From contig CP036201.1 of the NCBI GenBank assembly GCA_004299845.1, positions 1,054,001 to 1,118,000 of the forward strand: a stretch of DNA of 64,000 nt, written 5' to 3'. Of this stretch, positions 18,669 through 37,098 are shown in pieces; positions within the stretch are counted from its first letter, which is position 1; the number at the start of each line of letters is the position of its first letter. The position numbers and the translations under genes are program-made. Source of the DNA: Verrucomicrobia bacterium S94 (GTDB lineage: Bacteria > Verrucomicrobiota > Kiritimatiellia > Kiritimatiellales > Pontiellaceae). The notes under the pieces were generated by a model. That model was not told the DNA's origin and searched no databases. It worked only from the letters and a program-made list of their open reading frames with translations.

Positions 18669-18682
18669 AAGAGGAGGGAAAT

Positions 18683-21600
18683 ATGAGGAAGAAAAAAGTA
18701 CAGAAACCGAAAAGGGGAAAAATGAAATATAAACTCGGTAAACATAAAACCGTGTGGTTGATGGTACTGACTGTTTTCAGCTCGGTTCATCTGGTTAAGG
18801 TGGAGGCGGCAGAATCGCCATGGACTTCCGCCAACCGGATTGCTATCAGTGCAGACGGTAATCCGGATGCTGATGCCGACGATATCGGTGCAACGCCGTT
18901 TGCATTGGCGATGCTGGCCAAAGCGGGGCTGCAGGACAATCTGGTGCATTATGATTTCAATAATTTTCTGGAATATAAGAAAATTGAACCGGCAGATAAT
19001 GCCATGTGGGACAGTGCGATGGGGGCACAGGTGCGATGGGGATTTGATGCCGGCCGGTTTTTTGATGCTTCAATTGATCCGGACGGTGCGGTTGACCATC
19101 TTACGGAGGAAATCAATAAATCTTCGGCCGCCGATCCGCTCTATCTGATTGCGGCCGGACCGATGGAGCTGATTTACCGTGCTCTGAAAAATGCGGACAG
19201 CACGGCGCGACAGCATGTAACGATTGTTTCGCACCACGATTACAATGAATATTTTAAACCGCGCCTGTGGCAGCGGAACTGGAATGATATTCAGGCATTG
19301 GTTCCGAATATCGGCTATCTGAGGATTGCCGATCAGAACGGCAGTAACGGAAACGGCCTGAAGGGTACCGCGGATTCGGATTTCAGTTGGCTGGATACCC
19401 ATGCGGATCCGAATCTGAACTGGGTGTATGATCGTATCGTGGCCGGGAAGCCGGATGTTTCCGATGCAGGTATGCTTGCCTGGCTGATTGGAATTAACGG
19501 AACTGATGAAAAAGTAACGATTCCGGAAATGCAGGCCTGGTTCGGCACCGGGCTGATTCCGGCCAACGGCGGCAGTTCGACTGCTCCCACTGCTCCGGCC
19601 GGCGTGACGCCGGAGGTTGTGCCGCCCTCCACCGACAGTATCTTTGAGGAAGTCGATGGAAAAATTGTGATTGAAGCCGAGAGTGTTCCGCTGACGGATG
19701 ATTGGATTTTGGATACGACGGAAGCGGGGTACAGCGGCTCGGGATATATCCGCTGGGTGCCTTCCTGGATCAATAAAATCAGCCATCAGCATGAAGGGGT
19801 GCTCGTCTATAAACTGCGGATCTCCAATCCTGGCAATTATCGGATGGCGCTCCGTTCCTCCCACTTCGGTGCGCCGGCCCGTGACCAATGGAATGACTGC
19901 TGGACGGTCATGGGGCTGAATCCGGTGAATCCCTATGGTATCACCCGAAAGACCTATCATTCCATTTCGCAAGCGGAGTTTGATGCCGGGGCCGGTTTTA
20001 CGTGGCATACGACGCATGATAATTATGGAACTGTTGCGAATACCGACGGCCATTTTTCGGCACCGCTCTATAATCTGGATGCCGGGGATCATTATTTCTT
20101 TATCTGCGGGCGCTCGGGGGGATTCCGAATCGATAAAATTCATTTCTTCAAAGAGGGCGTTTCCGGATTCAAAAGTGATTCAGAGCCGGCCACCCCGATT
20201 ATTCCCGGAACCGGTGTGCCGCTGGTTTCCGCCGGGAATGACCGGAAAGTGCTGATGCCTGCAACGGGCACGCAGCTCGCAGGATCGGCCTCGGACGACG
20301 ACGGAACGATTGTATCCACGGAATGGACCCAGAAGTCGGGACCGAATACAGCCGTGATTTCGACGCCCTCGCAACTGACGACGGAGATCAGCGGCATTAC
20401 ACTGGGCACTTATGTTTTCACGCTGACGATTGAGGATAATGACGGGAACATCCGCTCAGACGATGTTACTGTTGATTGTGTGGGCAGCCTGATGATTCAG
20501 GAAGATGATTTCAGTGCGTACAGCGGGAATATCAATGGTGATCACTGGAATCCGAAATGGTCATCGGGCACTGATCAGCAGAGCCTATGTGAGGGAAACG
20601 GCGGATTACTGACGCTTGATACAACGGTGGCGGCGGAAAACTATCATGTGGCGGCGAAACATCCTTTTGTCCTGACGGTGGATGGACAGAAGGCGGTGAT
20701 GGGTTCTGATTTCCGGTATACCCACATGGCTGGAGGCGAAGCGGCCGAAGGACTGAACCGGTCGGTATTCGCGCTGATGTTTACGGGTGCCGACAACTGG
20801 TGGACCGGTCCGAACCGTTTTTTCAGTATCTGTAATCGCGGTTCCGGAATCGGGACGTTCAATGCAACGGGTCCGGATGTCATTTCTCATACAACACTGG
20901 GAGTGGATACGGAAACCGGCGGGCAGAGTGATTGGTTCCGGATGGAGTGGACGCTGGAACGTGGGGAGGAAAACTATATTGCCTCTGCCCGGATTCTGGA
21001 TTCCGGCGGTGCGGTGCTCTATGCCGGTCCGGCCGTAGATCTGGGAATTGCCAACGGAACCACTCTTTACGGCGGGTACAGCACCGGAGGGGACGGCGGT
21101 AACGGATTCACCACTAATGTGGCTTCGTTTTCGCGGATATCGTCTGTTCAGATGGATAACTTTTCGCTGGAGGTTTTCAGTCCGCATATGACGCCTGTTT
21201 ATGAAACGGTTTCAAAGATGATTGATTTCACTGAACCGGAGGGATTCGTTAACGGCGGTCTGAACGGTCAGCAGGGGTGGGTCAATGCCGGAGCAGGCTG
21301 GACGGTGGATACGACTGTTTCCGGTACGGCCGGCTGTTCCGCCGCGAATGCCAATATGACGCTGGGACGGGGCATCAGACTGAGTCATGAAGGCGATACG
21401 CTGGAATTCAGTGTCACCTATACCGTTTCCGGAACCCATGTGCCTACGGGCTGGAAATACCTTGCGCGCATCGGCATCACTTCCGATGCCTCCGGCAGCA
21501 ATGCGGGGTATGATGCGGCGGGTACTTCTCTGACCGAAGCGATGTTTACCATTCAGTTGCATCAGAGTACCGCCGATGCTTATCGTATTTATGGCGACGG

Positions 21601-22258
21601 CTGGGACGGACCGTTTACCGATCCGTTTAATTCCAATCCAGGAGATACCTTTACGGCTCATTATTCGCTGACGTTGGGGGAGGATGCGTCCGGCACGGTA
21701 TTTTCGGTTGAACTCGAAAATGATACCCAGTCGACGTTGTCGGGGGCTATCAGCGAAACAGACGGAATCGGGGCGGCGCTGTACGAAGCGATTAAAGCCG
21801 GTAATGCCTATGTCTACTTCGAAACGGGCGGGCTTGGTGACGGCATTACCGGGGTGTATGTGGATGCGGTGCGTGTGTTTTACTCTTCGCTGCAGATTGA
21901 CAGTTATCCCGGCTGGATCAACGACTACGGCTTCCTCGGTTCCGAGGCCGAAATGGAGTTTGATTATGACGGCGACGGCGTGTCGAACCTGAAAGAATAT
22001 ATCTGCGGAACCGCGCCTGATGATGCGGCTTCGGTTTTCCGGGTAAATGCGGAACGGGAACGGACTTCAGACGGTCTGGTGATTTCCTGGCATGCAGCTC
22101 CGGGACGCTCGTACGATATTCTGAAAAGTGAAGATATAACGTCGGGCGTGTATACATCGGTTGTTGAGAATATCCCGTATCCCCGGAACAGCTGCACCGT
22201 CGAAGTCAGTCAGGTGGAATCCGGAGCCTTCTACAGAGCGGCGGTTCGTATTCCCTGA
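18683..22258 (+). CDS. Giant secreted multi-domain protein, nucleoside-hydrolase-like N-domain
   Basis: The frame opens at GTG 18665, but GAGGAGGG at 18671-18678 sets the ATG at 18683 as the better start. After a charged leader and signal segment, the first domain (about 45-300) carries an Asp cluster, DGNPDADADDIGATPFALAM. It also has VSHHDYNE, both reminiscent of the metal site of nucleoside hydrolase/DUF1593 folds. Next are a CBM6/35-like jelly roll (IEAES start), a PKD-like domain, two LamG-like sandwiches, and a C-terminal module with a calcium-type repeat (DYDGDGVSNLKEY) ending AFYRAAVRI. The enzyme activity is not established. It overlaps the FecR gene, so it is in the sigma-factor operon. 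A relative with the same first domain starts at 60675. Confidence 0.82.
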   Translation: MRKKKVQKPKRGKMKYKLGKHKTVWLMVLTVFSSVHLVKVEAAESPWTSANRIAISADGNPDADADDIGATPFALAMLAKAGLQDNLVHYDFNNFLEYKKIEPADNAMWDSAMGAQVRWGFDAGRFFDASIDPDGAVDHLTEEINKSSAADPLYLIAAGPMELIYRALKNADSTARQHVTIVSHHDYNEYFKPRLWQRNWNDIQALVPNIGYLRIADQNGSNGNGLKGTADSDFSWLDTHADPNLNWVYDRIVAGKPDVSDAGMLAWLIGINGTDEKVTIPEMQAWFGTGLIPANGGSSTAPTAPAGVTPEVVPPSTDSIFEEVDGKIVIEAESVPLTDDWILDTTEAGYSGSGYIRWVPSWINKISHQHEGVLVYKLRISNPGNYRMALRSSHFGAPARDQWNDCWTVMGLNPVNPYGITRKTYHSISQAEFDAGAGFTWHTTHDNYGTVANTDGHFSAPLYNLDAGDHYFFICGRSGGFRIDKIHFFKEGVSGFKSDSEPATPIIPGTGVPLVSAGNDRKVLMPATGTQLAGSASDDDGTIVSTEWTQKSGPNTAVISTPSQLTTEISGITLGTYVFTLTIEDNDGNIRSDDVTVDCVGSLMIQEDDFSAYSGNINGDHWNPKWSSGTDQQSLCEGNGGLLTLDTTVAAENYHVAAKHPFVLTVDGQKAVMGSDFRYTHMAGGEAAEGLNRSVFALMFTGADNWWTGPNRFFSICNRGSGIGTFNATGPDVISHTTLGVDTETGGQSDWFRMEWTLERGEENYIASARILDSGGAVLYAGPAVDLGIANGTTLYGGYSTGGDGGNGFTTNVASFSRISSVQMDNFSLEVFSPHMTPVYETVSKMIDFTEPEGFVNGGLNGQQGWVNAGAGWTVDTTVSGTAGCSAANANMTLGRGIRLSHEGDTLEFSVTYTVSGTHVPTGWKYLARIGITSDASGSNAGYDAAGTSLTEAMFTIQLHQSTADAYRIYGDGWDGPFTDPFNSNPGDTFTAHYSLTLGEDASGTVFSVELENDTQSTLSGAISETDGIGAALYEAIKAGNAYVYFETGGLGDGITGVYVDAVRVFYSSLQIDSYPGWINDYGFLGSEAEMEFDYDGDGVSNLKEYICGTAPDDAASVFRVNAERERTSDGLVISWHAAPGRSYDILKSEDITSGVYTSVVENIPYPRNSCTVEVSQVESGAFYRAAVRIP

Positions 22259-22387
22259 GCCCGGCTGGCCGGAACGCTCTACGCGCCGGATTCCGGAGGA
22301 CGTTGCTCTTTTGAACGATAGGAAATCCGGAGAATTCAGAATACATTGGAGCCGTTTAACCTGCAGAGGAAGTGCTGGTAAAGGGGA

Positions 22388-24675
22388 ATGGCTGTAATGA
22401 ACATGATCAGATGGATTCTTCCGGTTTTCGCCGTGATTTCAGCAAGGGCTGCGATCATTGATTTTGATGCCGTCTACGGCAGCGCATCGGGCTGGACGCT
22501 GGCACAGCATTTAAGTGCGGCGGTCGATTCAGCCAGCCCGGGGGATATCATCCAGTTCAACAGTGCCTATTATGATTTTCAGGGACAGGGGCCGTCGGTT
22601 GATAAAGCGGTCACATTGCGCGGTATTGTGCCGGACTCCTTCGACGGCAGTTCGGTCGGTGCCACCAATGTGACCACGGTTTTTGATCATCTCAAACATT
22701 TCAACGTCTACAGCAGCAACTTCACACTGCAGCATCTGGAACTGCGTGAGGATGCATCAACCACGTATGCGTTCAATCGTTTCAAACGGACGGTTCCCGA
22801 GGATGAGGATCCGCATCAGTTCTACACGAATATCGTGGTGTAAAATGTGATCTATCGCGGCGGGGAGGTTCTGGTTTATGGCGGCGACGGAGCGGGCATT
22901 GAATTCCGGAACACCTCGTTTCTGGAATTCCGGAAAAACGGCTATGTGATCAACCGGCAGAACCGGGTGGACTATGCGCCGCAGGTGATTATGTACAACT
23001 GTTTTTTTAACCGGATTTCGATGCCGTCTATTTCAACGTCCGGGTCATTTCGATGGATGCGGGAAACTCGGAATATCCCGTGGTCTGGGATCAGAGCAAC
23101 CTGTGGCTGGAGGGCTGTCTGCTGGATGGCACCGGTTTCGGTCTGGGATCGAAATGCTCCAATGTCACCGTGACCAACTGCCATTTCAAAGGATACCGGA
23201 TGGATGTGGATATGCTGCACATCGAGGAATTCGGCTATAACTTTGTGATTGTCGATAATACCTTTGAACATGTCAGTCCGGCGCGCAGTATTTACATTGA
23301 TCGTGAACTCCAGCCGAATCACAGTATCCGGATTGAAGACAACACCTGGTTCGGAGAATACGGCTGGATCATCTCCTGTTATTCTCCGGAAGGTGTGATT
23401 TTCAGAAACAATGATTTTTCAGGTGCGTGGGCCAGTGATACCAACTTTGCGACCATTGATTTCACTTATCTGCACACCTCATCCGAAGCGGCTTACCTGC
23501 CTTATGATCTGCCGTGCGCGGATATTATTTTCACCAACAATACCGGACTGACAGCTGCAAAGGATGGTTATCTGGTCTATCAGTCGCTTTACGGGGACAC
23601 CTCGATTCAGATCGATTACCCGAAAATTCAGCATCGCGTTGTGCTGGAGCAGCCGCGGGCGGTATTCAGTCCGTACAGACAGTACCGCATCAAAAACAGG
23701 CAGAGCGGCGAATATATTGCCGCGATCGACGGCACAGACGAACTGGGCCTGATTTCCGGCGCAGCGTCCGATGGCTCCGATCTCGGGCTGCCTGCAGACC
23801 TTATGGTCTCCGGTTCAGAGGTGGTGCTGAAGGTTACCAATGCTCCCGCTAAGAGCTGGTTTGCACTGCTGTCCAAAACCAATCTGCATGATGCGGTATG
23901 GACCACCAACCGGACTGACCTTCCGATTGGCGGGCTGGGAGTCGGTTCCGTTACCAATTCCATTACCCAGCCTCAGGAGTTTTACATGCTGGTTGAAACC
24001 GAGGCGCCGCCGGTGCCGGTTATTGCATTTACAGCCCCGGACTATACCAACGGACTGCTTAATCTTCATCCGCGCTGGAATACCGAAACCGGCTGGATGG
24101 TCGGGGATGCGGAGGGGAGCGGACATATTCTGACGGAAGGGAATTCCGAAGCGGCCCTGCTGAACGAACCGGTGGTGCTGACGCCGGGGAGGCAATACCG
24201 CCTGAGTATCAATCTGCAGTTCGGCGGTTTCTATTCAACACCGTCGAACTGGGTTTACGCATTTCTTGGAGGACTGAAGCCGGACAATACAGGTGCCTCG
24301 GTCGGCACCGCTGAAGCTTCCGCTGCGGATGCAAATATTCAGATTTCAGCTACAGATTCTTATCGTCTGCTCAATAATTACAGCCAGATCGGCAGCAAAA
24401 TAGAAAACGGGGTTTTAAATGCCGGAGATGTGCTTCAGTTTGATTATGAGCTGACCATGGGGCTCAATGCCGATGGTACATTCTATACAGTTCGGCTGCA
24501 GAATCTGACCGATGGTACCGATACGGGACTCGGAACAGTCAATGGCGTCGATCAGGCGCTTTACAGCGCACTCAGCGGAAGCGGAGCCTACGGGTTCTTT
24601 CAGTCCATCAATCCGGGGAATAACGGCAGTGGACTGAGCGGAGTACAGGTGAATTCGGTGACGGTGGAGTACTAA
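22388..24675 (+). pseudogene. Secreted parallel beta-helix protein, broken by stop and frameshift
   Basis: The frame starting at 22388 (or 22397, better spaced from AAGGGG) has a signal peptide and then pectate-lyase-like sequence (SASPGDIIQFNSAYYDF, VTLRGIVPDS). It halts at TAA 22841-22843. The same frame continues directly as NVIYRGGEVLVYGGDGAGIE, so a single base change, such as CAA to TAA, would explain the stop. The frame shifts near 23010, after MYNCFFN, to PDFDAVYFNVRVISMDAG and runs to 24675. Beta-helix turns fill the middle, with LamG-like and FYMLVE-like ends. If whole it would be about 760 residues and could be a polysaccharide lyase or hydrolase. It is likely inactive if the sequence is right. 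Confidence 0.75.
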
Positions 24676-24704
24676 GGAAATAGGTGAAAAGGTATGGAGG
24701 ACGT

Positions 24705-26566
24705 ATGAAAATTGAAATGGGTTTAATTCTGATGCTTAGCGGTATCTGTTCCGCGGCGTACAAACAGCCGAATATTCTCTGGATCATTACCGATGATCAT
24801 CGCCCGGATTCAATCCAGGCCTATAACCGGGCAACAATCGGCCAAAGTGAAAGTCCGCTCGGTTATGTGTCTTCGCCGAATATCGATCAGCTGGCAGGAG
24901 AAGGGGTGCTTTTCACGCAGGCATTCAATAATTCGCCGGCGTGCGGCCCGTCGCGTACCTCCATGCATACGGGGCGCTATCCGTTCCGCAATGGAAAATA
25001 TGCCTGGGAGGCGACCCATCAGGAAGCCGATTTCACGCGTCCGGCGATTTCCCAGCAGCTGAAAGCGGCGGGCTACGGTACGGCAATGTTCGGCAAGGAC
25101 CATTACAGCATCAGTGAAAAGCTCGGTGGCGAAGGTGATATTTTTGATTATAAAATGGAGTTCAACCGCGATCTTCATCGACAGGGATTCGGCGGTCTTT
25201 TTTCCACCGGGGCGTATGGGCTGATTGACGCAGTGTTGTATCGCCGTGATGCCACCGAAACGGTGTTTTATCCGGACGGTCGCAGAAAGACCTATCCCAT
25301 TTCCCGGGCGGATCGTGCGCTGAGTCCGGAGGAGCAGCAGACGAAAGAAGCCGTGGAAAAAGAGTTTGATATTCTGCGGGCCTATACCCGTATCAATACC
25401 GGGCTGATTCTGGGCGGCGTCAATCCGCAGCCGGCGGATAAAACCGTCGATGCCCGCATCGTGGAGGAATATAAAAACTACCTCTCTCATGCCGGCACCA
25501 CCTACACCACACTGGCGGGAAAGAATGTCCGGGGTGCGGATCCGGAAAAACCGTTGTTCATCAACCTTGGTTTTCACCTGCCGCATTCCCCGGTTCTTCC
25601 TCCGAAAAAATTCCGGGATCAATTTAAAAACCGATCCTATAAAATACCGGAATTCGATACGGATGACATCGCTTCATTCACCCCTCAGCAGATGCAGATT
25701 TATAATGAATCGAAAACCGATCTGATGGATCCGGAGGATAAGCTGCAGGCCATCCGGGATTACTACGCCTTCACGGCATTCGGAGATGCACTGGTCGGGG
25801 AGGCCGTCGATGCCTTCAAGGCCTACTGTGCGGAACGGAATGAAGATTATCTTATTGTTTTCACGATAGGCGATCATGGATGACATCTGGGCGAGCAGGG
25901 CATTATGGCCAAATTCGGTTCCTGGAGGGCATCACTTAACGGAGCAGTGATTGTGGTCTCTTCCGATAAGGAAAAATATCCCGCCGGCAAAGTGGTAGAT
26001 AAACTGGTGGAATATGTTGATTTTGCGCCGACGATTATGGACGAAGCCGGAATTGATATTGAGCAGGATGCATTTGATTATCTTGACGGGTTCAATCTTG
26101 CGCGTGTCGTCAACGATTCCTCATTCCGCCGGGATTATATTCTGGGAGAAATGAATCTGGTCTCTGTGGTCATCGGGCTTATCTGCGCACGAAGGATTTT
26201 GCCTTCTCCATGCGTACGCGTAAGCGGCGCACGGTGGCCGAAACCCCGTACCTGAATGATGATATTACCTGGGCATTGACCACGGAGCCGCTGAATGCCG
26301 AAATGGCGCTGTATGATCTGCGGCACGACCCGATGGAGCGCCGGAATGTGGCCTATACCGTTGAATATATTGAACTGGCGGAATGGTTCCGGCAGAAACT
26401 CGGCCGTATTGTACTGGGAGACGGGCGCGTGGAAATGGACTGGTCGACCGTTAACTGTTATAATCTGAGCAATTCTGCCGCCGGGGCGGACGATAAGATG
26501 AGCGATATTCCGAAAGCGCTCATTCCCGAAGGCCCCGTTCGGCGACCGGAGCGCTTTAATCTCTGA
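24705..26566 (+). pseudogene. Type I sulfatase, broken by stop and frameshift
   Basis: Start at 24705 has a GGAGGA ribosome site just upstream. The first 392 residues hold the signal peptide, WIITDDHRPDS (metal site) and PACGPSRTSMHTGRY (catalytic Cys about 80). The frame stops at TGA 25881-25883 in TIGDHG, where iduronate-sulfatase-like proteins read GDHGWHLGEQG. The next codons in frame are HLGEQGIMAKFG, so TGG has become TGA. A frameshift near 26155-26170 then moves the reading to GHRAYLRTKDFAFSMRTR, which runs to 26566. It resembles iduronate-2-sulfatase-like and choline-sulfatase-like S1 subfamilies. It ends the sigma-factor cluster. Confidence 0.8.
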
Positions 26567-26640
26567 TTTCAGCATTTTCCCGTCTTTGGAATGTTCGGAG
26601 ACTGTAAAATATTCTTTGAGGGTTTCGTTCTTCGTCGGAC

Positions 26641-26660
26641 TTCCCCCATATGGGGAATGG
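26641..26660. promoter_or_regulatory. Candidate operator dyad upstream of Gfo/Idh gene
   Basis: TTCCCCCATATGGGGAATGG contains a near-perfect 17-base palindrome (TTCCC, 7 bases, GGGAA) followed by TTTTT. It sits 119 bases before the gene start at 26780. It is the most symmetric of the four related sites (10701, 13574, 32009). Confidence 0.5.
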
Positions 26661-26779
26661 TTTTTCGATGCACAGCGGAAGCTTCTCCTGACTTAATGTT
26701 TTCCGATTCTGTGTCGTTCAGGCCTGTGAGGTACAGGCAGGATGCAGAACGGAGTATATTTAAATTCACAGGAGGAACC

Positions 26780-28141
26780 ATGGCTGTAACACGGAGAGGA
26801 TCCTTAATCACGGGCGGCATTGCATCGTCCGCGTTGCTGATTCCCGGATCGGTACTTGGTGCAAATGAAAAAATTAGTATTGCATTTATCGGTATCGGTG
26901 CCAGAGGAAACACCCTTTTGTCGCTGTTTGAAAAATCCGGCCTGATCCATGTGGCGGCACTCTGCGACGTTGATCTGGAAACGGACTATGTGGCAGAGGC
27001 AAAGAGCCGTTTTCCTAAAGCCTGTGTCTACAGCGACTGGCGGAAACTGTTTGATGAAAAGTCGCGTGAATTTGATGCGGTGATGGTGATGGTGCCGGAC
27101 CATAGCCATTTTCCCATTACCATGGCGGCGATGGCACTGGGTAAACACGTCTACACCGAAAAGCCGCTGGCACGCACGTTTGAGGAAATCGAGCTGATGA
27201 CGGCGGCTGCAAAACGGTACGGCGTGGTAACGCAGATGGGGAATTCCGGATTTTCGGGACCGAATTATTTTCAATTTAAAGCATGGAAAGAGGCAGGGAT
27301 TATTAAAAATGTGCGCCATGTGGATGCCTTTATCAACATCAGCTTCCCCTGGTACGGCCGCCGGATCAGCAGTTGGCCGGCAGGAGAAAAGATGCCCGGT
27401 CACATTAACTGGGATGTCTGGCTGGGAACAACACCGGAGCGGCCGTTCAGTAAAGAGTATGCCCGTTGGTCCTGGCGCGGCTGGCAGCAGTACGGAACGG
27501 GAGCGTTCGGTGACTGGGGGGCGCATATTTTCGATTCCATGCATCATTTTCTGGAGCTGGGTCTGCCGGAAAAAATCGAGATTAAAAAACTCGTCGGCCG
27601 GAATGATTTCACCTTTTCAAGAGCTTCAACCCTCCGGTTTACATTCCCGGAGCGGAACGGTATGCCGGCGTTGCGAGTCGATTATTATGACGGACGAAGC
27701 GAAGAGGATTATCCGCCGGAACCCGCAGCATTTGCCGGTCGGGAAAATGATTATACGAAACATCCCGGTAAATTCATTTTTTCAGATTCGTTAACATTTT
27801 TTGGGGGACATCACGGTACCCCATTACAGGTGATCCCCTATGGGAAAATGCGGGAACTGCTGCAGGCCGGAACATTGCCGAAGGATTTCGGGCGTCATTC
27901 GGATCACTATACCAACTTCCTGCTGGCCTGTAAGGGTGAGGAAAAGACGAGATCGCCTTTTGAAATCGGCGGACCGCTTTCGCAGTTTCTGGTACTGGGT
28001 TCTATTGCCCAGCGCATGGGAACAGAAGGGCAGATACTGACATTTGATCGAATGAAAAAATGTTTTTCCAATAACGATCGGGCCAATGCACTGCTGAAAG
28101 ATATACCCCGTAAAGGGTGGGAACAGTATTACACACTTTAA
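26780..28141 (+). CDS. Gfo/Idh/MocA-family oxidoreductase, exported
   Basis: The frame is open from 26591, but GGAGGAACC directly before the ATG at 26780 marks the start. This gives a protein of 453 residues with a Tat-like leader ([10 protein letters not shown] then a hydrophobic stretch), and excludes the upstream operator from the coding region. The Rossmann fold has GIGARG and CDVD, and the substrate domain has TEKPLA and [11 protein letters not shown]. Family members oxidise or epimerise sugars with NAD(P). The following gene, 14 bases downstream, encodes a DUF1080 protein. Such pairs are known to form and cleave 3-keto glycosides, so oxidation at C3 of a glycoside is the likely reaction. 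Confidence 0.9.
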
Positions 28142-28155
28142 GACGGAATAGGTAT

Positions 28156-29163
28156 ATGGCTATGAGATATAAACGACGCTGGGTATTTTTTATACTGTTC
28201 ATTCTATCTGTTTCCTCGCATGGCTTTGAATATGAAAATGCGGATGATTATCCGCTGATGGGGGACTGGGCCGGGCAATGGTATGGGGCCACCAAAGGGC
28301 ATGAACGGGTTCGACCTCAGATCTACGCCCAGCTTGTACCTGCCTGGGAGGGGTATTACCGTGTGCTGCTGCTGCCTGAACTGTATAACCGCGCGGAGCC
28401 TTATCTGGATGTCACAGTTCCCGGGAGCCATGAAAAGGTGGTGGTGAATCAGGACGGGTTTCATGTGGTATTCAGCGGTGACCGAGTTGAAGGTGTCGGG
28501 GAAATTTACGGTGAAAAGCTCCGTTTTACCCTGAGCAAACAGCCCTTTCTTCCCGCATCTGTCGGACAGGAGCCGCCGAAGGGGGCAGTTGTGCTGTTCG
28601 ACGGCAGTTCGTTTGACGCCTGGCGACATGAACCGGATAAACCGGTTACCTGGGATATTGTCGGAAATGCGATGCAGATAGCTGCAGCATCAAATAAAGA
28701 GAACAGGGAAAAGGGAATCGGTGGCAATATACGAACACGGGAAGCTTTTTCGAGTATGCGGTTTCATATGGAATTCCGTTACCCGGTGGAAGAGGGCCGA
28801 TCCGGACAGAACCGGGGAAACAGCGGTCTGTTTTTTCTGGGTATTGGCGAAGTGCAAATTCTGAACAGCTATACCACTCCGGGCTATTGGAACGAGGCAG
28901 GTGCAATCTACAAAACAGTACCGGCGAAAGTCAATGCAGCCGGTCCGCCGCTGGCCTGGCAGGCTTATGATGTGGAGCTGCTGCTTCCGGATGAGGGCGG
29001 CCGGCCGGCCATTATGACGGTGCGGCTGAATGGGAAAATTCTGCACCATAAAATGGAAATCCCATGTTCAAGGCGTGAAGTTGAAGTGATGCTGCAGGAC
29101 CACTCAAATCTGCTGCAGTTCCGTAATATCTGGTTGGTGGAATATCCGGCTGGCACGGAATAA
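28156..29163 (+). CDS. DUF1080 / 3-keto-disaccharide hydrolase-like protein
   Basis: A start at 28156 or 28162 gives a signal peptide ([17 protein letters not shown]); the frame is open from 28117 but that would overlap the preceding gene. The 335-residue protein has an extra N-terminal half (about 20-140) and then the DUF1080 concanavalin-like fold starting [12 protein letters not shown]. Typical features are [15 protein letters not shown] and the closing [12 protein letters not shown]1080 proteins hydrolyse 3-keto glycosides, and the upstream Gfo/Idh protein would supply them. The N-terminal extension is not in the 46473 relative. Confidence 0.85.
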
Positions 29164-29210
29164 AATTTCCGGAGCTTGGAATCAACAGCGACAGCGGGTA
29201 CATTCCGGAT

Positions 29211-31348
29211 ATGCGTAAAAAACGGTTCAGCGTATGGTGTCTGGGGTTTGTGCTATGGTCCGGATATACGTGGGGCAGGTTCCGATTACCTCCATTCTGG
29301 AGATACGCCGGTTAACTGCGGAGCAGGCGGAACTGGGCTACCCGGTCGCGGTTGAGGCGCAGGTGGTTCGGGTGAATCCGTATAAAAACCATTTTTTTAT
29401 CAATGACGGCGAGTTTGGTATTTTTGTCGGAGGGATATCGGAATCTCCCTCGATTGTTGAATCGCTGAACGCGGGCGATGTGGTGCTGGTTTGCGGAAAA
29501 ACAACAGCGGGTGCGTTTATGCCGGACATTCAGGCTACGTCTGTACAGGTTCGGGGCAACCGGCCGCGGCCGGAGCCGATGCAGATTTATAATACAGATT
29601 TTGTGAGTACAGGCAGTGACTGCAAATGGGGTTGGATCCGGGGCCGCCTTCTGTCCATGAAGATTTCGGCTGATCAAACGGCCATTTTACTCGAATTGAT
29701 TGATGTCGACAGCGAAGAGTATGTGGTTGATCTGCCGTATTCTGAATCCAATGAGCAACGGATCAGGGAGCTGATGTTCAGCTTTGTGAAGTTGAGTGCT
29801 GTCTGCGGAACCGTGGCGAATGAAAACCGGCAGATGGTCGGCCGTATTTTTTATGCTCATTCAGCGGATGATTTTCTGCTCTCAGGGGAGGAGTGGCTGC
29901 TGAATACGGTTGATACTGCCGAAATTCATGAACTCCTGCGCTATAAAGTGTCATTTAACCGTCCGTTCCGGACTCATGGCACTGTGCTGTATTCCCGGGA
30001 TCAGGAGATGGTACTGCGGGGCAGACGGGCCTGTCTTAAAGTGGCTCTGAATGATCCGGTTGATGTGGAGCCCGGGGTTGAAGTTTCATTGACCGGTTTC
30101 ATCTGGCTCCAGCCGGTCAGTCCGGCATTCCGGGCCGGTAAGGTTGAGGTGACCGGTAAAGCGGACAAGCCGCTTCCTGTACTGCTGGATCTGTCGGAAC
30201 CGCTTGATCCTCTGATGAATTATGATCTGGTTCAGGTGGATGCGGAACTGATCGAAATCAAGAAAGACTATGCCAAAGGCGGTACAGTTCCGCAGTATAC
30301 TATGCGCTGCCGCTCGGCCGGTGAATTTTTTGAAGCACGCCTGCCGGCAGGGATACAGCCGACAGGCCGGATTGATCCGGGCGCGTTGCTGCGTCTTTCC
30401 GGTATCTGTAATATGCAGCGGGATGATGCGGAATACCTGAATCTGGTGATATCCGGTTTCTGGATGCAGTTGCGCGGAACGGCGGATATTGAAGTACTCA
30501 GTCCGCCCCCCTGGTGGACAAAAGCCCGCCTGCTCATGCTGCTCGGCGGGGTACTGAGCATTACGCTGATTTCCATGGTCTGGATTGTGATCCTGCGGAA
30601 AACCGTGGAACGTCAGACCCGTATTATTGCCGAAAAAGTGGAGCGCGAATCGATCCATGAAGAGCGGCAGCGGATTGCCCGGGAACTGCACGATAATCTG
30701 GAGCAGGGCCTGGCCGGGGCGATTTTTCATCTGGGAGGGGTGCGGCGTATTTTCCGGAAGAGTGCTGAAAAGAATTTCCGGCATCTGGCCGATTTGGCGG
30801 CGGCGGGCAATCTTGAGGGTGTGCATGCTTTTTCCGGGAAGTGGAAGACGGAAACGGATCAGAATGCAGAGGCGCTGGAAGCTGTCGAGCATATGCTCTC
30901 ACACTGTTCGGAGGAATCGAGAACCTCGATTCTCGACCTGCGCGGCGGTCTGCTTGAAAAAATGGATCTGGCAGAAGCGGTCCGGGTCAGCTTCCGGACC
31001 CTGGAAAAAGAACGGGGGATTAAAGTGAACATCAGGATTGATGGGCAGCCCCGCCGTTTTGTACCGGCGGTGGAGCGGAATGTTCTTCTGGTCATCAAAG
31101 AGGCGGTTTCCAATGCCGCGCGGCATGCTTCGGCGGATCGGATTCATGTGAAACTTGATTTTTCGGCGGGCCTGAAGGCAGTGGTTATCGATAACGGATG
31201 CGGGTTTGATTTAAAGGAGCAGTCGCAAGCCGGGCGTTTCGGGCTGCAGGGTATGCAGGAACGAATGCAGAACATAAAAGGTTCGTTAAGTATTGAAAGC
31301 AGAAAAGGCGAAGGTACCGTGGTGACAGCGGAAGTGGCGTCGGTTTAG
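29211..31348 (+). CDS. Sensor histidine kinase with OB-fold-like segments, signal peptide frameshifted
   Basis: Paralogue of the kinase at 10797, with the same order: about four OB-fold-like segments (FINDGEFGIFV, VEVSLTGFIW), a transmembrane helix (LLMLLGGVLSITLISMVWIV), HisKA_3 (EERQRIARELHDNLEQ) and a HATPase (IKEAVSNAARHA, DNGCGFD, GRFGLQGM). The open frame begins at ATG 29234, which gives no signal peptide. A different frame from ATG 29211 encodes one ending YTWG. Adding one G to the four-G run at 29272-29275 would join it to the kinase frame (WGQVPITSILEIRRLT), matching kinase 1. If the indel is real, export of the sensor part would be lost. It follows DUF1080 by 47 bases and precedes its regulator. 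Confidence 0.85.
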
Positions 31349-31363
31349 AAAGGGGCGGATGAT

Positions 31364-31996
31364 ATGGACCAATGTATTCGAATTCTGATTGTTGATGATA
31401 ATCCCATGATGCGTTTCGGACTGCGGGGCAGCCTCAGTTCTGAGGAGGGATTCAAAGTGATCGGCGAGGCGGCAAGCGGGGAAGAGGCCCTGGCTTTTGT
31501 TCGGGAGTATCGACCGGATGTGGTTACGATGGATTATAAAATGCCCGGAGGAAACGGGATCGAGGCCACGACAGAAATTTTAAAGGATGTGCCGGAAACA
31601 AAAATCATTCTCCTTTCGGTGTTTGATTCGGAAGAGGATATCTGGAAGGCCGTTCAGGCAGGGGTCTGCGGTTATCTGACCAAGACTGCCGGTGATGTGG
31701 ATGAACTGATTGACGCGGTTAAAACCGTGGCGGCCGGAAAAGAATTTTATCCGGAAATTATTGCTCAGAAACTGAAAGAACGGCGTAAGATGTCGGACCT
31801 GAGTCCTCGTGAGGTCGAGGTGCTCAAGTTGCTGGCTGCGGGGCATTCCAATAAGGAAATGGCTGCTGCACTGGGGATTTCAGATGAAACGGTAAAAGCG
31901 CACCTTGCAAACCTGCGGTCCAAACTCGGGGCCAGTGACCGTACGCACGCGGTAGTGATGGCCTATGAAAAAGGCATTCTTCATTTAAATGAATAA
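31364..31996 (+). CDS. NarL/LuxR-type response regulator
   Basis: A 210-residue paralogue of the regulator at 12938: receiver domain with VDDNP, phosphoacceptor Asp in VVTMDYKMPG, and Lys in YLTKTAG, then a LuxR domain (LSPREVEVLKLLAAGHSNKE, ETVKAHLANLRSKL). GGGGCGG precedes the ATG. It lies 15 bases after kinase 2, so the two form a two-component pair. The recognition helix differs from regulator 1 at only two residues, so they may share sites. A dyad of the shared type (32009) lies 12 bases beyond its stop. Confidence 0.93.
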   Translation: MDQCIRILIVDDNPMMRFGLRGSLSSEEGFKVIGEAASGEEALAFVREYRPDVVTMDYKMPGGNGIEATTEILKDVPETKIILLSVFDSEEDIWKAVQAGVCGYLTKTAGDVDELIDAVKTVAAGKEFYPEIIAQKLKERRKMSDLSPREVEVLKLLAAGHSNKEMAAALGISDETVKAHLANLRSKLGASDRTHAVVMAYEKGILHLNE

Positions 31997-32008
31997 TTCA
32001 GACGCTCC

Positions 32009-32028
32009 ATCCCCCAAATAGGGAATCC
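32009..32028. promoter_or_regulatory. Candidate operator dyad upstream of PEP-CTERM gene
   Basis: ATCCCCCAAATAGGGAATCC holds the palindrome (A/T)TCCC, 7 bases, GGGAA, followed by TTTTT. It lies 82 bases before the PEP-CTERM gene at 32110 and just after the regulator gene, in the same relation seen at 13574. Confidence 0.5.
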
Positions 32029-32109
32029 TTTTTGAGCACTTACGTTCTCATTGTGAATGGTATACGTGGGTATCAAATGTGAACTGTAATAACAAAAAGG
32101 AGATTCTGG

Positions 32110-32871
32110 ATGAGTAAGAGGATGTATTTTGCGTGCGGTGCGGTTGCACTGGCTCTGGGGGTTTGTGCGGATGTTTCGGTTATTACCGCGGTGAATCCCG
32201 CTGAGGGATGGTGGAGCAACGGTGTCAACAGCAGCAATAAAACGATGGGGGCATCGGCAACCATTACAGATGCAGGGGGCACCTATTCCGGTTTTACCGG
32301 CATCAGCAGTGTGGCGGGCAGTATCGGCGGAAACATTCTCCACGGCAGTATTGCAACAGACAATCCCGGAACAGCGGCAGAGGCACTGACCGATAACCGT
32401 CTGGATACAGGGGTGGGTAATCCCAGCGACAATACGCAGTTCTGGCTGGGGGAGACGGTCTCATCGCGGCACTTGCTGGCATTTATTTGGACCGGTACCC
32501 GAACGGACAATGGATCAACGAGTTCATGGTACGATCAACCAGCATCCATTACAGCTTTTGATAGCAGCGGTTCGCAGGTCGGAAGCACGGTCAGTGTTCC
32601 GGATGTGGGCGGTGAACATTTCGGACGGGTGAATCTGGGGGGATATACGGCTTTAAATGACCGGGGTATTTTCGGGGTCACGGTTGACATTGCCGATTTC
32701 GGCGGAACGGCTTCCGAGATTGCCTATGTCAGCATCGCCGGCACCCCCAGAACAGATACAACAGATATGATGTATGTCGGAACCGCTGCTGTTCCGGAAC
32801 CTGCAACGCTCGGACTGATTGCTCTGTCCGGCGGAGCGGTACTTTGCATACGCCGCACGTTTATGATCTGA
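32110..32871 (+). CDS. PEP-CTERM sorted secreted protein
   Basis: A 253-residue protein with a Sec signal peptide (CGAVALALGVCA), a beta-rich body of about 200 residues, and a C-terminal PEP-CTERM tripartite signal: VPEPATLGLIA, a hydrophobic helix, then Arg-rich RR. PEP-CTERM proteins are processed by an exosortase (not in this window) and are linked to extracellular polysaccharide in Gram-negative bacteria. The body has no recognised catalytic domain and may bind a sugar. It has a GGAGA ribosome site 6 bases before the start and likely heads an operon with the following LamG gene 25 bases downstream. Confidence 0.85.
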   Translation: MSKRMYFACGAVALALGVCADVSVITAVNPAEGWWSNGVNSSNKTMGASATITDAGGTYSGFTGISSVAGSIGGNILHGSIATDNPGTAAEALTDNRLDTGVGNPSDNTQFWLGETVSSRHLLAFIWTGTRTDNGSTSSWYDQPASITAFDSSGSQVGSTVSVPDVGGEHFGRVNLGGYTALNDRGIFGVTVDIADFGGTASEIAYVSIAGTPRTDTTDMMYVGTAAVPEPATLGLIALSGGAVLCIRRTFMI

Positions 32872-32896
32872 ACGGAAAATTACAGGAGAAAGAGAA

Positions 32897-34822
32897 ATGA
32901 AGAAACTATTATTCACTATAGCAGCAGGCTGTGCCGCTGCATCCGTTCAGGCGGGCGATCTACTGAACTACCTCGATAAAGTCGGCACTCCGTCGGACGG
33001 CGGCAGCGGACCGGTCATCTGGTATAAAACGGCCAGCACTCCGAATGACGGTACGGCCGGGGCGCAGTATACCTTGACCTGGGGCCAGCCGATGACCCGA
33101 CTTTCAACTGATTTCTGGGGGAATGCAGATTCGGCGTTCGGTCTGGAAGCCGGTGCTTCCGGAGGAGCTAATATTGCGAATGCATCGGGGCTTTTTGCAT
33201 CGGGCGATACCGGGACGGTATGTATGCTTTTCCGTACACCGAGCAATATGGCACCGGCTACGGTTTACAGCGTGTTCAACCAGGGACTGTGGGGGGACGG
33301 AGCGCCGTTTGAAATCCGAATCTATGATGGTATACTGGAAGGCAGTACGACGGAAACCGGCGGTGCCCGGCCGACCTGGGACATGATCAGTGGATTGAAA
33401 GGCGGAACCTGGTATTATGTAGCGTATGCCTGGGACCTGACTCTTGAAAGCGATACGCTTTCCTGGTATGCGGGTGAACTGGGGGTAAGCCTGAATAAGG
33501 GAACACGGACCATTATTTCGGCGGGTATGGACTCCAAGGCTGTATTTGTCGGGGGGCGGCCTTCCGGAGGTTCTTTGGATGACGGAGCTGTACAGAGTTT
33601 TGCTATTTATGAACGTATGCTGTCAGAGCAGGCGATTCAGGATCAGTTCGCTACAACCCTTTCCGATTCTGCGCAACGCTTGACGGATTATTCTGAAGTG
33701 ATTGCCAACCCGGCAGATGGAGGTTCCGGCCCGGCGTTATGGTATAAAACCGCCAATCAGCCCAATCTGGGATCGGCAGACAGTTCCTATGTCCTGACCT
33801 GGGGCGGAAAAATGACAAATACGACGGCTGATGTGTGGGGCAATGAGGATGCTGCCTTCGGTCTTGATTATACGGTCGTAACCAATGGGGGGCTTAAGTA
33901 TGCCAATGTGGCATCCTCATCGGGACTGTTTTGCACCGGCGATACCGGAACGATTACGTTCATGTTTAAAACGGGGTCAGCAGATGAGCTGACCGGTTTC
34001 GATTCGCTGTTCAATCAGGGTATCTGGGGCGACGGACAGCACATTGAGGTCGGTATTGAAAACGGACAGCTCCGGGTTACTCATTTCGACAGCGCCTGGA
34101 CAAATGATGCCGGACGCCGGAAGACCTATTGCGGTGAAGCACTGGAAAGCGAAACCTGGTACTATTTCGGTATGACCTGGGATCTCGGGCTGAGCACGAA
34201 TCAAATGACCTGGTTCAAAGGCCGGGCGGGTGATGTTGAACTTGAATCGGGCCGTGCAGGTATGACGGCATCGGGAAATACAGCCAGGTCTATCCTGTTT
34301 GCAGGCCGCAATAACTACTATCCGTTCAAAAATGGATTTTATCAGAATATTGCGATCTATGAGCGAGCTCTTTCGGAAGCTTCCATGCACGCGATGTTTG
34401 ATGCAATTCCTGAGCCGGCACCGCCGGGTTATGATGGATTCAAGGAATTTTTCGGAATGCTGGGTGAACCGAATTCGGGGCCGAATGATGACTATGATTC
34501 CGATGGGCTGAACAATCTTTATGAGTTTGCTCTGGGCGGACATCCCGCCAATGGGACGATAGAGCCGGCTATGCTGCCGACGATGACGTTAGAGGGAAAT
34601 TCGGTTGCCTATACCAACGTGATGCTGACTGCCGGGGATGCGGGAATCAGCTATCGGGTTGAGCAGTGTGATGATCTGATTACCGGAACCTGGACCAATG
34701 CGGGCTGGAGTTCGGTTTCAACCAATCTTACGGCCGATCCTGATTTTAATGTCATGGTTCATGAATTGGATGCAGGCGCTAAAGACCGGCTGTTTATTCG
34801 CCTGAAAATCACACAGCCGTAA
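32897..34822 (+). CDS. Secreted protein with two LamG-like repeats
   Basis: A 641-residue secreted protein with a signal peptide ending in SVQA. Two LamG-like repeats of about 230 residues follow, each starting with a pattern like TPSDGGSGPVIWYKTAS or NPADGGSGPALWYKTAN, and sharing LTWG and FCTGDTGTITFMF-type strands. The repeats are about 40 to 50 percent alike by eye, so they arose by internal duplication. The C-terminus has a calcium-type DYDSDGLNNLYEFALGG motif and an open beta-module. It is probably a carbohydrate-binding or surface protein acting with its neighbours. No catalytic motif was found. Confidence 0.85.
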   Translation: MKKLLFTIAAGCAAASVQAGDLLNYLDKVGTPSDGGSGPVIWYKTASTPNDGTAGAQYTLTWGQPMTRLSTDFWGNADSAFGLEAGASGGANIANASGLFASGDTGTVCMLFRTPSNMAPATVYSVFNQGLWGDGAPFEIRIYDGILEGSTTETGGARPTWDMISGLKGGTWYYVAYAWDLTLESDTLSWYAGELGVSLNKGTRTIISAGMDSKAVFVGGRPSGGSLDDGAVQSFAIYERMLSEQAIQDQFATTLSDSAQRLTDYSEVIANPADGGSGPALWYKTANQPNLGSADSSYVLTWGGKMTNTTADVWGNEDAAFGLDYTVVTNGGLKYANVASSSGLFCTGDTGTITFMFKTGSADELTGFDSLFNQGIWGDGQHIEVGIENGQLRVTHFDSAWTNDAGRRKTYCGEALESETWYYFGMTWDLGLSTNQMTWFKGRAGDVELESGRAGMTASGNTARSILFAGRNNYYPFKNGFYQNIAIYERALSEASMHAMFDAIPEPAPPGYDGFKEFFGMLGEPNSGPNDDYDSDGLNNLYEFALGGHPANGTIEPAMLPTMTLEGNSVAYTNVMLTAGDAGISYRVEQCDDLITGTWTNAGWSSVSTNLTADPDFNVMVHELDAGAKDRLFIRLKITQP

Positions 34823-34836
34823 CTGTTTCATCTCAA

Positions 34837-34853
34837 TTCCCTTTCACAGGGAA
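34837..34853. promoter_or_regulatory. Palindrome resembling the shared dyad
   Basis: TTCCCTTTCACAGGGAA matches the TTCCC, 7 bases, GGGAA pattern of the sites at 26641 and 32009. However, it sits directly in front of a terminator, so it may only be part of the terminator structure. Confidence 0.3.
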
Positions 34854-34854
34854 C

Positions 34855-34889
34855 AGGGTGCTCTGAAAACAGAGCGCCCTTCTTGTTTA
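34855..34889 (+). terminator. Rho-independent terminator
   Basis: AGGGTGCTCTG, loop AAAA, CAGAGCGCCCT, then TCTTGTTT. The stem has one G-T type mismatch. It follows the LamG gene by 33 bases and separates it from the GH16 gene. Confidence 0.8.
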
Positions 34890-34911
34890 TTTATAATAGG
34901 GTTGGTGAATT

Positions 34912-37098
34912 ATGAAAGCAGAACCTATTCGATATACTTTGGCAGTCTGCTTCGGACTGATACTTTGCCAGGCCTGGGCTCAGGATATTGATCCGGCGAG
35001 CGATCCGGATGTACAGCCGGCTTCCGCTACCTCTTTGAACGGTTACCGACTGGCCTGGTCGGATGAGTTTGACGGAACGGCGGTTGATGAAACCAGATGG
35101 AATTACCGGGAGGGGGATGACAGCCGAAGCTTTGTAAAAAGCTACCAAACCTCGGCGAATAATACGGTTTCCAACGGACTCTATCACTGCATATTGAAAA
35201 AAGAGTCTATGGGCAGCAAAGAGTTCACTGCCGGCGGGCTCATCAGCTCTAAACAGATGCGTTACGGTTATTATGAATCCCGTTTCAGATGTCCGCCGAC
35301 AGGGGGATGGCACACCTCGTTCTGGATGATGCCGTATAAGGGAGGTGGATCGCCGGTGATTGAACTGGATGTGTTTGAAAATGATTCGGTCAATCTATAT
35401 GATTATTCCGTAAATGTGCACCGCTGGAAACCCGAACCGCATATGATGTTTGGAACCAGGAAAATCGATACTCCGAATTTGAGTGCCTCGTTTCATGTTC
35501 TGGGCTGTGAATATACACCGGATGCGGTCCGCTACTTCTTCGATGGTGTTTTGGTGCAGGAAGTCGATGCGACTGCGTTTCCCCACGGTGATATGAATAT
35601 CTGGCTGACTTCGCTGGGGCTGGTATATGACGGGCAGCCGACTATTGACGAGTCGCAGCTCCCGGTTGAAGCGCAATACGATTATGTCCGCTATTTTGAA
35701 CTCGGACCGCACGCCACGGTCGAGATTGTTTCTCCGATTTCCGATGGTGCAACCCTGACGGATACGAATACGACCGTCGTGCTTCAGGCGGCAGTGACGG
35801 CGGTCAATACGGGAGCGGTTCCGACGGTTATCTGGTCAAAACAGTCGGGACCGGGCTCGGTTGTTTTTGATGACACCTCCTCCACCAATACGGGGGTGCG
35901 ATTTGCTGCAGACGGCTATTATGAAATCATGTGCTCTGCAATTATCGGGAATATTACTAATTCAGATACTGTTGCCATTGCTGTGAATGCGCCTTTAAGC
36001 GTGACGTTACGAAATGGTGCCGACGGATATGAGCATGCTGCAACGTTCATTCGTGAGGATTATCCGGATCTGAATTCCGGGGCGGATAATGAGCTGATTG
36101 TCGGTCGCTGGGGAGGAGGGGCTTTACGCGGCCTGCTGGAATTTGATCTGAGTGTGCTGGGTTCAAATGCGGTTATTCAGGCTGTGGAACTTTCTCTGTA
36201 TAATTACGGAGGTGCTGGAGCGGTGGGTGATATGGAACTTCGTGAATTGAGTAGGTCTTTCATTGAAGGAACCGGAGATGGAGGTGGGTGGAATGATGGA
36301 AATGGGGACGGTTCAGGGGCCACCTGGTTTTCGCGTACCGGTTCTCAGAACTGGAGCACGGCCGGCGGTGATTTCTATCCTGCACTTCTATCTTCGCATC
36401 CGGGATATGACGCCACGGAAGCCGGTTATAAAACATTTCCCACTTCATCCCGTTTTGTTGATTCCGCGCAGTCCGCCCTGAATGATGTGCAGCCGCTTAA
36501 ACTCATACTTTCGTCTCCGGAGGCAGAGAGCAGCCCGGACGGCAATATTAGCCGGTTCCGTTCCGACGATGCTTCGGCGGCAGATGAACGTCCGGCGCTT
36601 AAAGTGAGTTATCTTGGAAATTTTATTCCGGAGATAAGCGCGGGATCTGATCTGGCGGGAATCATCAACCGTCCGGTTGTTCTGCAGGGCAGTGCCCGTT
36701 ATGCGGATGAGGTGGAATGGCGGCTGGTCAGCGGGCCCGCTCCGGTGAATTTTCCGGATCCATATGTACTTACAAATACGGCACTTTTTGCTGCTCCCGG
36801 GCGTTACCGGCTACGCCTCGCGGGAACCAGTACACAGGGAAGCGGATATCAGGAGATTTCTGTCTCCGTAGTCGATGAACCGCCGGTATTCCATGAAGCG
36901 GAATTGGTGGGCGATGCTTATGTATTTGAAGTCAGTGCCGTAACCGGACTGACCTATACCATACAGCTTTCGACCAACCTGATGTCCGGAAGCTGGAAGG
37001 ATCTCTATACGACAAATGCAGATACTGATCCGATATTCATTGAAGTTCCGTTTTCAACAAACAATGCCGGTTTCTACCGTCTGATTCTTAAACCGTAA
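34912..37098 (+). CDS. GH16-family endo-glycoside hydrolase
   Basis: A 728-residue secreted enzyme that probably cuts beta-1,3 or beta-1,4 galactan chains. After a signal peptide (about 1-23), the GH16 domain (about 40-265) has the catalytic motif VIELDVFEN, with nucleophile Glu about 151, Asp 153 and acid/base Glu about 156. The ExDxxE spacing is that of the beta-bulge GH16 group, which includes agarases, porphyranases and kappa-carrageenases. Substrate-side tryptophans are in GWHTSFWMMPY. Then come a PKD-like domain, a DNRLRE-type domain (about 365-575), another PKD-like domain and a C-terminal module ending AGFYRLILKP. Context with the GH86-like enzyme favours agar or porphyran. Confidence 0.9.
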   Translation: MKAEPIRYTLAVCFGLILCQAWAQDIDPASDPDVQPASATSLNGYRLAWSDEFDGTAVDETRWNYREGDDSRSFVKSYQTSANNTVSNGLYHCILKKESMGSKEFTAGGLISSKQMRYGYYESRFRCPPTGGWHTSFWMMPYKGGGSPVIELDVFENDSVNLYDYSVNVHRWKPEPHMMFGTRKIDTPNLSASFHVLGCEYTPDAVRYFFDGVLVQEVDATAFPHGDMNIWLTSLGLVYDGQPTIDESQLPVEAQYDYVRYFELGPHATVEIVSPISDGATLTDTNTTVVLQAAVTAVNTGAVPTVIWSKQSGPGSVVFDDTSSTNTGVRFAADGYYEIMCSAIIGNITNSDTVAIAVNAPLSVTLRNGADGYEHAATFIREDYPDLNSGADNELIVGRWGGGALRGLLEFDLSVLGSNAVIQAVELSLYNYGGAGAVGDMELRELSRSFIEGTGDGGGWNDGNGDGSGATWFSRTGSQNWSTAGGDFYPALLSSHPGYDATEAGYKTFPTSSRFVDSAQSALNDVQPLKLILSSPEAESSPDGNISRFRSDDASAADERPALKVSYLGNFIPEISAGSDLAGIINRPVVLQGSARYADEVEWRLVSGPAPVNFPDPYVLTNTALFAAPGRYRLRLAGTSTQGSGYQEISVSVVDEPPVFHEAELVGDAYVFEVSAVTGLTYTIQLSTNLMSGSWKDLYTTNADTDPIFIEVPFSTNNAGFYRLILKP

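Follow-up and report, generated by a model that had tools for sequence, protein, structure and literature searches.

The stretch of DNA analysed here, called the window in the following, comprises 64,000 nucleotides (positions 1054001-1118000) of the 4,107,983-base genome of Verrucomicrobia bacterium S94, which lies on one contig. It contains three genes for exported proteins, designated here by their start positions as protein 1 (18665), protein 2 (32897) and protein 3 (34912). An earlier note had reported that these proteins (the first given as 18683) share a C-terminal part, and had suggested a sorting or anchoring tag special to this group of bacteria. The shared part was borne out by sequence profiles and by inspection of the C-termini, and we find that dozens of otherwise unrelated secreted proteins, here and in relatives, end in one small fibronectin-like domain, which we refer to as the module and which is usually preceded by a TSP3-type calcium loop. 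The three window tails have a common pattern of Y-x-[IV], then a [STCD]-x-[ND]-[LI]-like stretch and, as the last strand, one of FYR or FIR type. The calcium-type loop noted earlier for two of the proteins is indeed present as DYDGDG in protein 1 and DYDSDG in protein 2, about 100 residues before the C-terminus, and is missing from protein 3. The features are listed in Table 1.

The alignment of four sequences was weak by itself, showing only four invariant columns, and therefore the case had to rest on sequences from outside. A leave-out profile of 48 rows, taken from other genomes only and without any window sequence, matched the C-terminus of protein 1 with 49.8 bits (independent E-value, iE, of 1.4e-14) and that of protein 3 with 28.8 bits (iE 5e-8). 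Protein 2 was matched weakly with 9.8 bits (iE 0.044), as compared to 7.8 bits for the best of 8340 shuffled open reading frames (ORFs). Chance resemblance was ruled out for proteins 1 and 3 by the leave-out profile and the shuffles, the same test being weak for protein 2. The tail of the latter belongs to a sister form of the module, with a GGNP-like instead of an AGTDP-like stretch and FIxL-like instead of FYRV. A sister-form profile made from 18 hand-chosen proteins of the own genome and trained with protein 2 scores this protein at 106.6 bits, and main and sister form match each other by profile comparison (probability 94.9, E 4.7e-8). A further, internal copy in the frame 23011-24672 was found with an iE of 0.31 by the leave-out profile and of 0.0034 by a trained profile.

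Table 1. Genes and module-related features of the window (window positions)
Feature	Position	Strand	Remarks
Tagged exported protein 1	18665..22258	+	1197 aa; PKD-like domain 523-603
TSP3-type calcium loop of protein 1	21962..22027	+	DYDGDGVSNLKEYICGTAPDDA
Main-form C-terminal module, protein 1	22028..22255	+	predicted fibronectin type III (FN3)-like, six strands; reaches stop codon
Weak internal module copy in 23011-24672 frame	23809..23991	+	gene fragment, apparently split over several frames
PEP-CTERM protein	32110..32871	+	253 aa; 25 bp upstream of tagged 32897 gene
Tagged exported protein 2	32897..34822	+	641 aa; Laminin_G_3 lectin-type domain
Sister-form C-terminal module incl. DYDSDG loop, protein 2	34490..34819	+	
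Tagged exported protein 3	34912..37098	+	728 aa; GH16, DNRLRE domain
C-terminal module, protein 3, without calcium loop	36901..37095	+	predicted six strands
Start of fifth tagged gene (L079)	60675..64000	+	1344 aa; sister-form module just past window end

A search of the own genome with one copy as query returned 30 matches at E<=10, and a 20-row profile returned 75 at E<=1, 16 of them loop-only. Of these, 56 were fetched, the 19 omitted being the 16 TSP3-only matches and those at 104612, 1513641 and 1772255 (E 0.099-0.4). Using a profile of the beta part, which includes own-genome rows, we detected the main form in 41 own proteins (iE<0.01), and in 36 of them at most 5 residues lie between its end and the stop codon. 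A profile of sequences from other genomes only still recovered 36 own proteins at the same threshold, three of them via weak matches that lie about 750 residues before the end. The sister form was assigned by eye to 12 of 15 own proteins without the main form, in addition to window protein 2. An FYR-like triplet could be placed within the last 16-18 residues of 42 of 48 own and 58 of 78 other proteins, with its first residue 5-12 positions from the end.

The profile search of related genomes proposed in the earlier note showed that the module is frequent in the phylum. At least 79 loci (labelled L plus number, as are those of the own genome) were obtained by scanning species genomes, with record titles of Verrucomicrobia, Kiritimatiellae, Lentisphaerae and others. 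Among the loci listed, the distance from calcium loop to stop codon is mostly 93-105 residues, and 69 of the 74 module proteins from other genomes end within 5 residues of the stop. The five exceptions are two proteins with an internal module (L154, L179), a partial match with 61 residues left (L132) and two shortened copies ending in FFRV (L118, L133); in L154 the internal copy is followed by a calcium loop. Two module copies occur in L115, L148, L164 and L188, the last copy being terminal. The module is also present at two loci (L117, L187) of the named strain Pontiella sulfatireligans, with a PEP-CTERM neighbour at L187. A 60-row profile, which includes the calcium loop, matches 176 of 288 genomes of the phylum at E<=1e-5, and lone weak matches may be loop-only. 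With the beta part only, matches at E<=1e-4 were obtained in 27 of 59 genomes of the phylum, with up to 91 in one genome, vs. 1 of 199 genomes of the phylum holding L178 (record titled Gammaproteobacteria), where two partial matches were obtained; the comparison is between the own phylum and this other one, Planctomycetota and most other phyla not being covered. The TSP3-only proteins L156, L178, L183 and L184 contain no module by profile, and neither does L147. The 'Omnitrophota' carrier L140 was considered as an outgroup and rejected because the phylum search around it returned already-known genomes with the same match positions, which places its genome within the window's phylum.

The carriers are mostly exported proteins with very different bodies. 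By a simple rule, 41 of the 56 tagged ORFs of the own genome start with an in-frame signal peptide. Among the 15 failing the rule, L060 has a signal peptide by eye, and ten (L056, L057, L059, L064, L065, L066, L067, L087, L091, L105) are preceded by a signal-like start in an upstream frame, which overlaps the tagged ORF in nine cases and lies one frame further back in L066. The status is ambiguous for L062, L068 and L081, the upstream region of L078 was not inspected, and L084 and L099 are possible false positives. In the other genomes, a signal peptide is present by the rule applied in 43 of 49 complete tagged ORFs vs. 104 of 389 other ORFs of the same loci. Besides the GH16 and Laminin_G_3 bodies of proteins 3 and 2, the carriers include subtilases (L063, L064), a GH8 protein (L090), a lambda-carrageenase (L083), a porphyranase-type protein with malectin (L057), a DUF2961 protein (L069), a glucose/sorbosone dehydrogenase (L072), a Sortilin/BNR protein with CBM96 (L077) and beta-helix proteins (L066, L073). 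A Pfam scan of 20 own tagged proteins besides the three window proteins left seven without any family at E<=0.001. The PKD, Laminin_G_3, CBM96, malectin, Big_9 and CGLA_C domains of tagged proteins sit further inside than the module, and the tail of the lambda-carrageenase lies past its named C-terminal domain (aa 1065-1142 of 1277). In protein 3, a PKD-type match scores under its cut-off.

The tail of protein 1 was modelled by AlphaFold2 with a pLDDT of 93.5 as the loop, a short helix (9-15) and six strands, and that of protein 3, which lacks the calcium loop, as six strands with a pLDDT of 79.1, the first 11 residues scoring below 50. A Foldseek search with the module model gave no match at E<=0.001. 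VIA-align placed FN3 domains on top for the model of protein 1, namely 5g56 of CtXyl5A (Z 9.0, rmsd 2.9, 81 aligned), 3mpc (Z 8.5, rmsd 2.2, 73 aligned) and the Fn3 domains 3b4n of PelI (Z 8.5) and 4u49 (Z 8.2). For the model of protein 3, the best match was the calcium-binding adhesin 2yn3 (Z 7.2), with FN3 domains lower and Z values of 6.7 and 6.2 for the PelI/Pel3 Fn3 domains 3b4n and 4u49. Because best Z values of 7 to 8 may reflect merely a common arrangement, the model of protein 1 is only slightly above this level and that of protein 3 is not above it. Among the sequences of the Protein Data Bank, the module profile matched the Fn3-like 3mpc (E 0.0044), and the FN3 family PF00041 matched one of 20 members (E 0.024, 15.3 bits vs. 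a gathering score of 25), covering profile positions 5-67 of 84. The beta part is conserved at W21, G26-R27, Y29 (113 of 118 sequences), [ND]36-L37, W42 and F70-Y71-R72-V73-x-V75 of a 78-position profile, and it shares with FN3 domains the predicted fold, a W in strand B, a Y in C, a W in C' and an aromatic F strand. It differs from them in staying under the Pfam gathering score and in ending after strand F instead of comprising seven strands including G. In all of 11 single-domain FN3 chains among the VIA-align matches of protein 1 (up to 100 residues, numbered from about 1, excluding 4wtx and the 75-residue fragment 1dan_T), approximately 9-20 residues remain after the aligned end. We read the module as a predicted FN3-like beta-sandwich which ends after strand F and is devoid of strand G.

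Of the known families, TSP3_bac (PF18884) matches the calcium loop in 9 of 20 members at E<=1, with L065 over the cut-off (37 vs. 25 bits) and L063 just under it (24.2); it is absent from the copy of protein 3, and its model of just 22 positions covers the loop part of the tail. Amuc_1099 (NF042425) matches the loop in 13 of 20 members at E<=1, in the first member at residues 1-25 only. Apart from these two, no Pfam or NCBIfam family beats an E value of 0.008 on any of the 20 members, the three window tails have no match in PHROGs, and no description of the module appeared in the literature searched, as judged by titles or the beginnings of abstracts. Calcium loops of this type are already known, and the module would belong with the C-terminal sorting or anchoring domains, its sorting part being putative.

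Among the known systems closest to the module is the PEP-CTERM/exosortase (EpsH) system, which also occurs in Verrucomicrobia (PMC1569441). Like PEP-CTERM, the module is C-terminal, present many times per genome and attached to diverse proteins with signal peptides, partly in adjacent genes and on shared bodies. It differs in that its approximately 75 aa form a folded domain, and the tagged C-termini show no PEP motif, membrane helix or basic tail by eye, for which reason we rejected it as an exosortase substrate; a folded domain without cleavage motif or membrane helix is not a sortase-type signal. The genome codes for an exosortase (TIGR02602, 155.7 bits, over cut-off, 1831269-1831961) and 26 PEP-CTERM matches over cut-off, and this exosortase serves the PEP-CTERM proteins and does not turn the module into one. 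The earlier remark that the window contains no sorting enzyme agrees with these results as far as the exosortase and the five secretins of the genome are concerned, which all lie outside the window; other sorting enzymes were not searched for.

The genes of both systems are found close to each other more often than expected. Six of the 26 PEP-CTERM genes lie within 2 kb of a tagged gene on the same strand, vs. 0.66 expected from a rotation test (p 0.0006), and five lie within 1.2 kb vs. 0.40 expected (p 0.0016); the test used 53 tags with E<=0.00135 and was run after the adjacency had been noticed in the same data. At least seven PEP-CTERM/tag pairs, including the window pair 32110/32897, stand in tandem and are separated by about 25-180 bp; in six of the seven the tag is of the sister form. 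The tag of the pair L221 has an E value of 0.099 by the general profile and of 2.3e-22 by the sister-form profile.

Moreover, the bodies of the two protein groups are partly related. Of the 26 PEP-CTERM proteins, 21 were compared (three being missed by the extraction pattern and two not fetched), and six of these match 12 of 51 tagged bodies at E<=1e-3. No match was obtained with reversed bodies. The best matches show 46-60% identity over 155-205 residues. The PEP-CTERM protein of L220 is identical to the tagged proteins L060, L061 and L077 in 58.7-60.1% of about 200 residues, starting from the signal peptide, and to its tagged neighbour L097 in 46%. That of L219 represents a single copy of a domain with 37-55% identity to four related stretches of its tagged neighbour L108, behind which it is encoded (genome positions 61461-66000 for the two). 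Window protein 1 is related at aa ~629-836 to the body of a PEP-CTERM protein, and the PEP-CTERM protein of L229 shows 32% identity to it over 211 residues. In 739 kb around the 74 tags of other genomes (loci listed), a pattern search detected four PEP-CTERM-like ORFs, of which three are credible (L130 being excluded by eye) and two are tag-adjacent. Both of the latter are paralogous to their tagged neighbour, L187 of Pontiella with E 4.3e-14 and L153 of Kiritimatiellales with E 1.8e-41, each calculated against that single neighbour sequence.

Across genomes, we compared 40 genomes chosen among the tag-rich ones (at least 16 matches) with 40 chosen among the tag-free ones (no match; 18 listed and 22 inferred from their absence among the matches); G142 and G239, two no-match genomes of the window's class, were not part of the set. 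An exosortase (E<=0.001) is present in 40 of 40 tag-rich vs. 13 of 40 tag-free genomes, and outside the window's class in 10 of 10 vs. 13 of 40 (Fisher p 0.0001, which ignores relatedness and lifestyle).

On these grounds, we tentatively favour the reading that the module serves exported proteins of this phylum as a C-terminal docking tag, which would retain them at the surface or in the matrix. The reading builds on the computed terminal position, export signals, diversity of bodies, predicted fold, and adjacency to and sharing of bodies with PEP-CTERM genes, from which we infer calcium binding, a receptor and retention. After export via the Sec system, the tail would fold into the calcium loop and an FN3-like domain stopping after strand F. 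Because the fold stops there, the conserved FYRVxV strand is proposed to be left as a free edge. This edge and the C-C' loop with its conserved [ST]-x-[ND]-L stretch would be bound by an envelope or matrix component, which would then keep the protein on the cell surface or within the extracellular matrix. Such a docking route would be an alternative to the exosortase route taken by PEP-CTERM proteins. Pilin subunits are completed by a strand, and by analogy it is conceivable, if rather improbable, that docking occurs by strand completion, the free F edge being completed by a strand of an envelope receptor, with the Kiritimatiellales carrying a two-gene unit together with a PEP-CTERM paralogue of the same body. 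Such a unit would provide one copy that is sorted and anchored and one multi-domain copy that bears the tag.

Several observations weigh against the docking reading. A minority of the copies is not terminal. In L071 the module sits between two calcium loops ahead of another region, which we take to be of the DUF1800 type, followed by a presumably DUF1501-like gene (genome position 2708689). The tag of L078 (L213; genome position 108963 onward) continues in frame into a sulfatase-like sequence, and L111 contains a variant copy near the N-terminus, just after the signal sequence. Copies inside proteins, which the earlier note regarded as speaking against a tag, also include L154, L179 and, weakly, the 23011-24672 frame, and 29 and 25 residues follow the module match in L099 and L082. 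The C-terminal placement is therefore a rule, not a law. The pairing with PEP-CTERM is real but limited, since it concerns mainly the sister form and the Kiritimatiellales, and the association with exosortase is confounded by relatedness and lifestyle because the window's class contributes 30 genomes to the tag-rich set of 40 but none to the tag-free set of 40. Extracellular domains shuffle freely, and the sharing of bodies alone is therefore no proof of equivalent tags. Finally, the module was proposed to be special to this group, which agrees with its frequency in the phylum and its near-absence from the other phylum searched; the restriction is not certain because one match (E 4.1e-5) occurs in a genome with a record titled WWE3, that of L147. 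As to the proposed tag itself, the mostly C-terminal position, the exported carriers with unrelated bodies and the PEP-CTERM alternative have stood up, while a sortase-type signal has not and some copies are not terminal. Apart from this, the arrangement of L078 resembles a fusion of two neighbouring genes.

The best-documented rival is a type II secretion determinant, i.e., FN3 loops read by the GspC/GspD platform while the folded enzyme crosses the outer membrane, as for the Fn3 domains of the pectate lyases PelI and Pel3. It is best documented because a loop of these Fn3 domains is reported as a signal and the domains match the module: PMC7949064 reports loop 3 of the Fn3 domain, between strands C and C', as a secretion signal for the type II secretion system. 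The PelI/Pel3 domains are among the best structural matches of both models, and the module has a conserved [ST]-x-[ND]-L stretch where this loop would lie. However, the Pel domains are N-terminal and occur in one enzyme family, whereas the module is C-terminal and occurs in many, and because of their N-terminal position and the common fold the Z values are weak evidence. The own genome contains five secretins (PF00263) with one type_II_gspD match over cut-off (393.8 bits), and GspD-like proteins (E<=0.001) are present in 40 of 40 tag-rich genomes, but also in 36 of 40 tag-free ones (Fisher p 0.12), and the co-occurrence is therefore not specific. Of the 80 genomes, 29 exceed the GspD cut-off; none of these is tag-free, but 28 belong to the window's class, which looks like a clade effect. 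In addition, a six-frame scan of the window detected no module in other likely exported proteins, e.g. the sulfatase 42189-44018, which argues against a general type II signal. We consider a role in type II secretion unlikely.

To the same unlikely degree, the module may have no part in sorting and act passively, either as a cap that stabilises the C-terminus or as an accessory domain that binds carbohydrates weakly, being copied together with the secreted enzymes. FN3 domains serve as spacers in secreted glycoside hydrolases, the best match of protein 1 belongs to such an enzyme (CtXyl5A), many carriers are carbohydrate-active and a few copies are internal. This poorly explains the near-exclusive terminal position, the subtilase and beta-helix carriers, and PEP-CTERM as the other C-terminus on homologous bodies. 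Very improbable is an equivalent of the type IX C-terminal domain peculiar to this phylum, with a dedicated translocon and sortase that would recognise and remove it: as in the type IX secretion system with its Por_Secre_tail domains of similar size class, terminal place and diverse cargo, the module is a beta-domain of about 75 aa at the extreme C-terminus of many diverse exported proteins, but no type IX tail family was among the Pfam or NCBIfam matches of 20 members at E<=1, and no candidate machinery was found, with a SprA search of the own genome giving no match and the control genomes giving none either.

Some features of the gene neighbourhood are added here. A beta-helix type gene at 22388-24675 and a sulfatase gene at 24684-26566 each appear to be split over two or three frames, as do about ten tagged genes elsewhere in the genome, representing either assembly indels or many recent pseudogenes. 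Directly upstream of the gene for protein 1 are genes for a sigma-70 region 4 protein and a FecR protein (16846-18668), and this pair may regulate it. The region is flanked by two large Laminin_G_3 plus FAD-dependent oxidoreductase proteins at 13678-16416 and 37296-40298.

The phylum has many extracellular polysaccharide-degrading enzymes. A tag carried by dozens of them per genome would give access to their secretion or anchoring route and help to annotate many unnamed exported proteins. The pairs of tagged and PEP-CTERM paralogues represent a natural experiment, offering the same body with two different C-termini.

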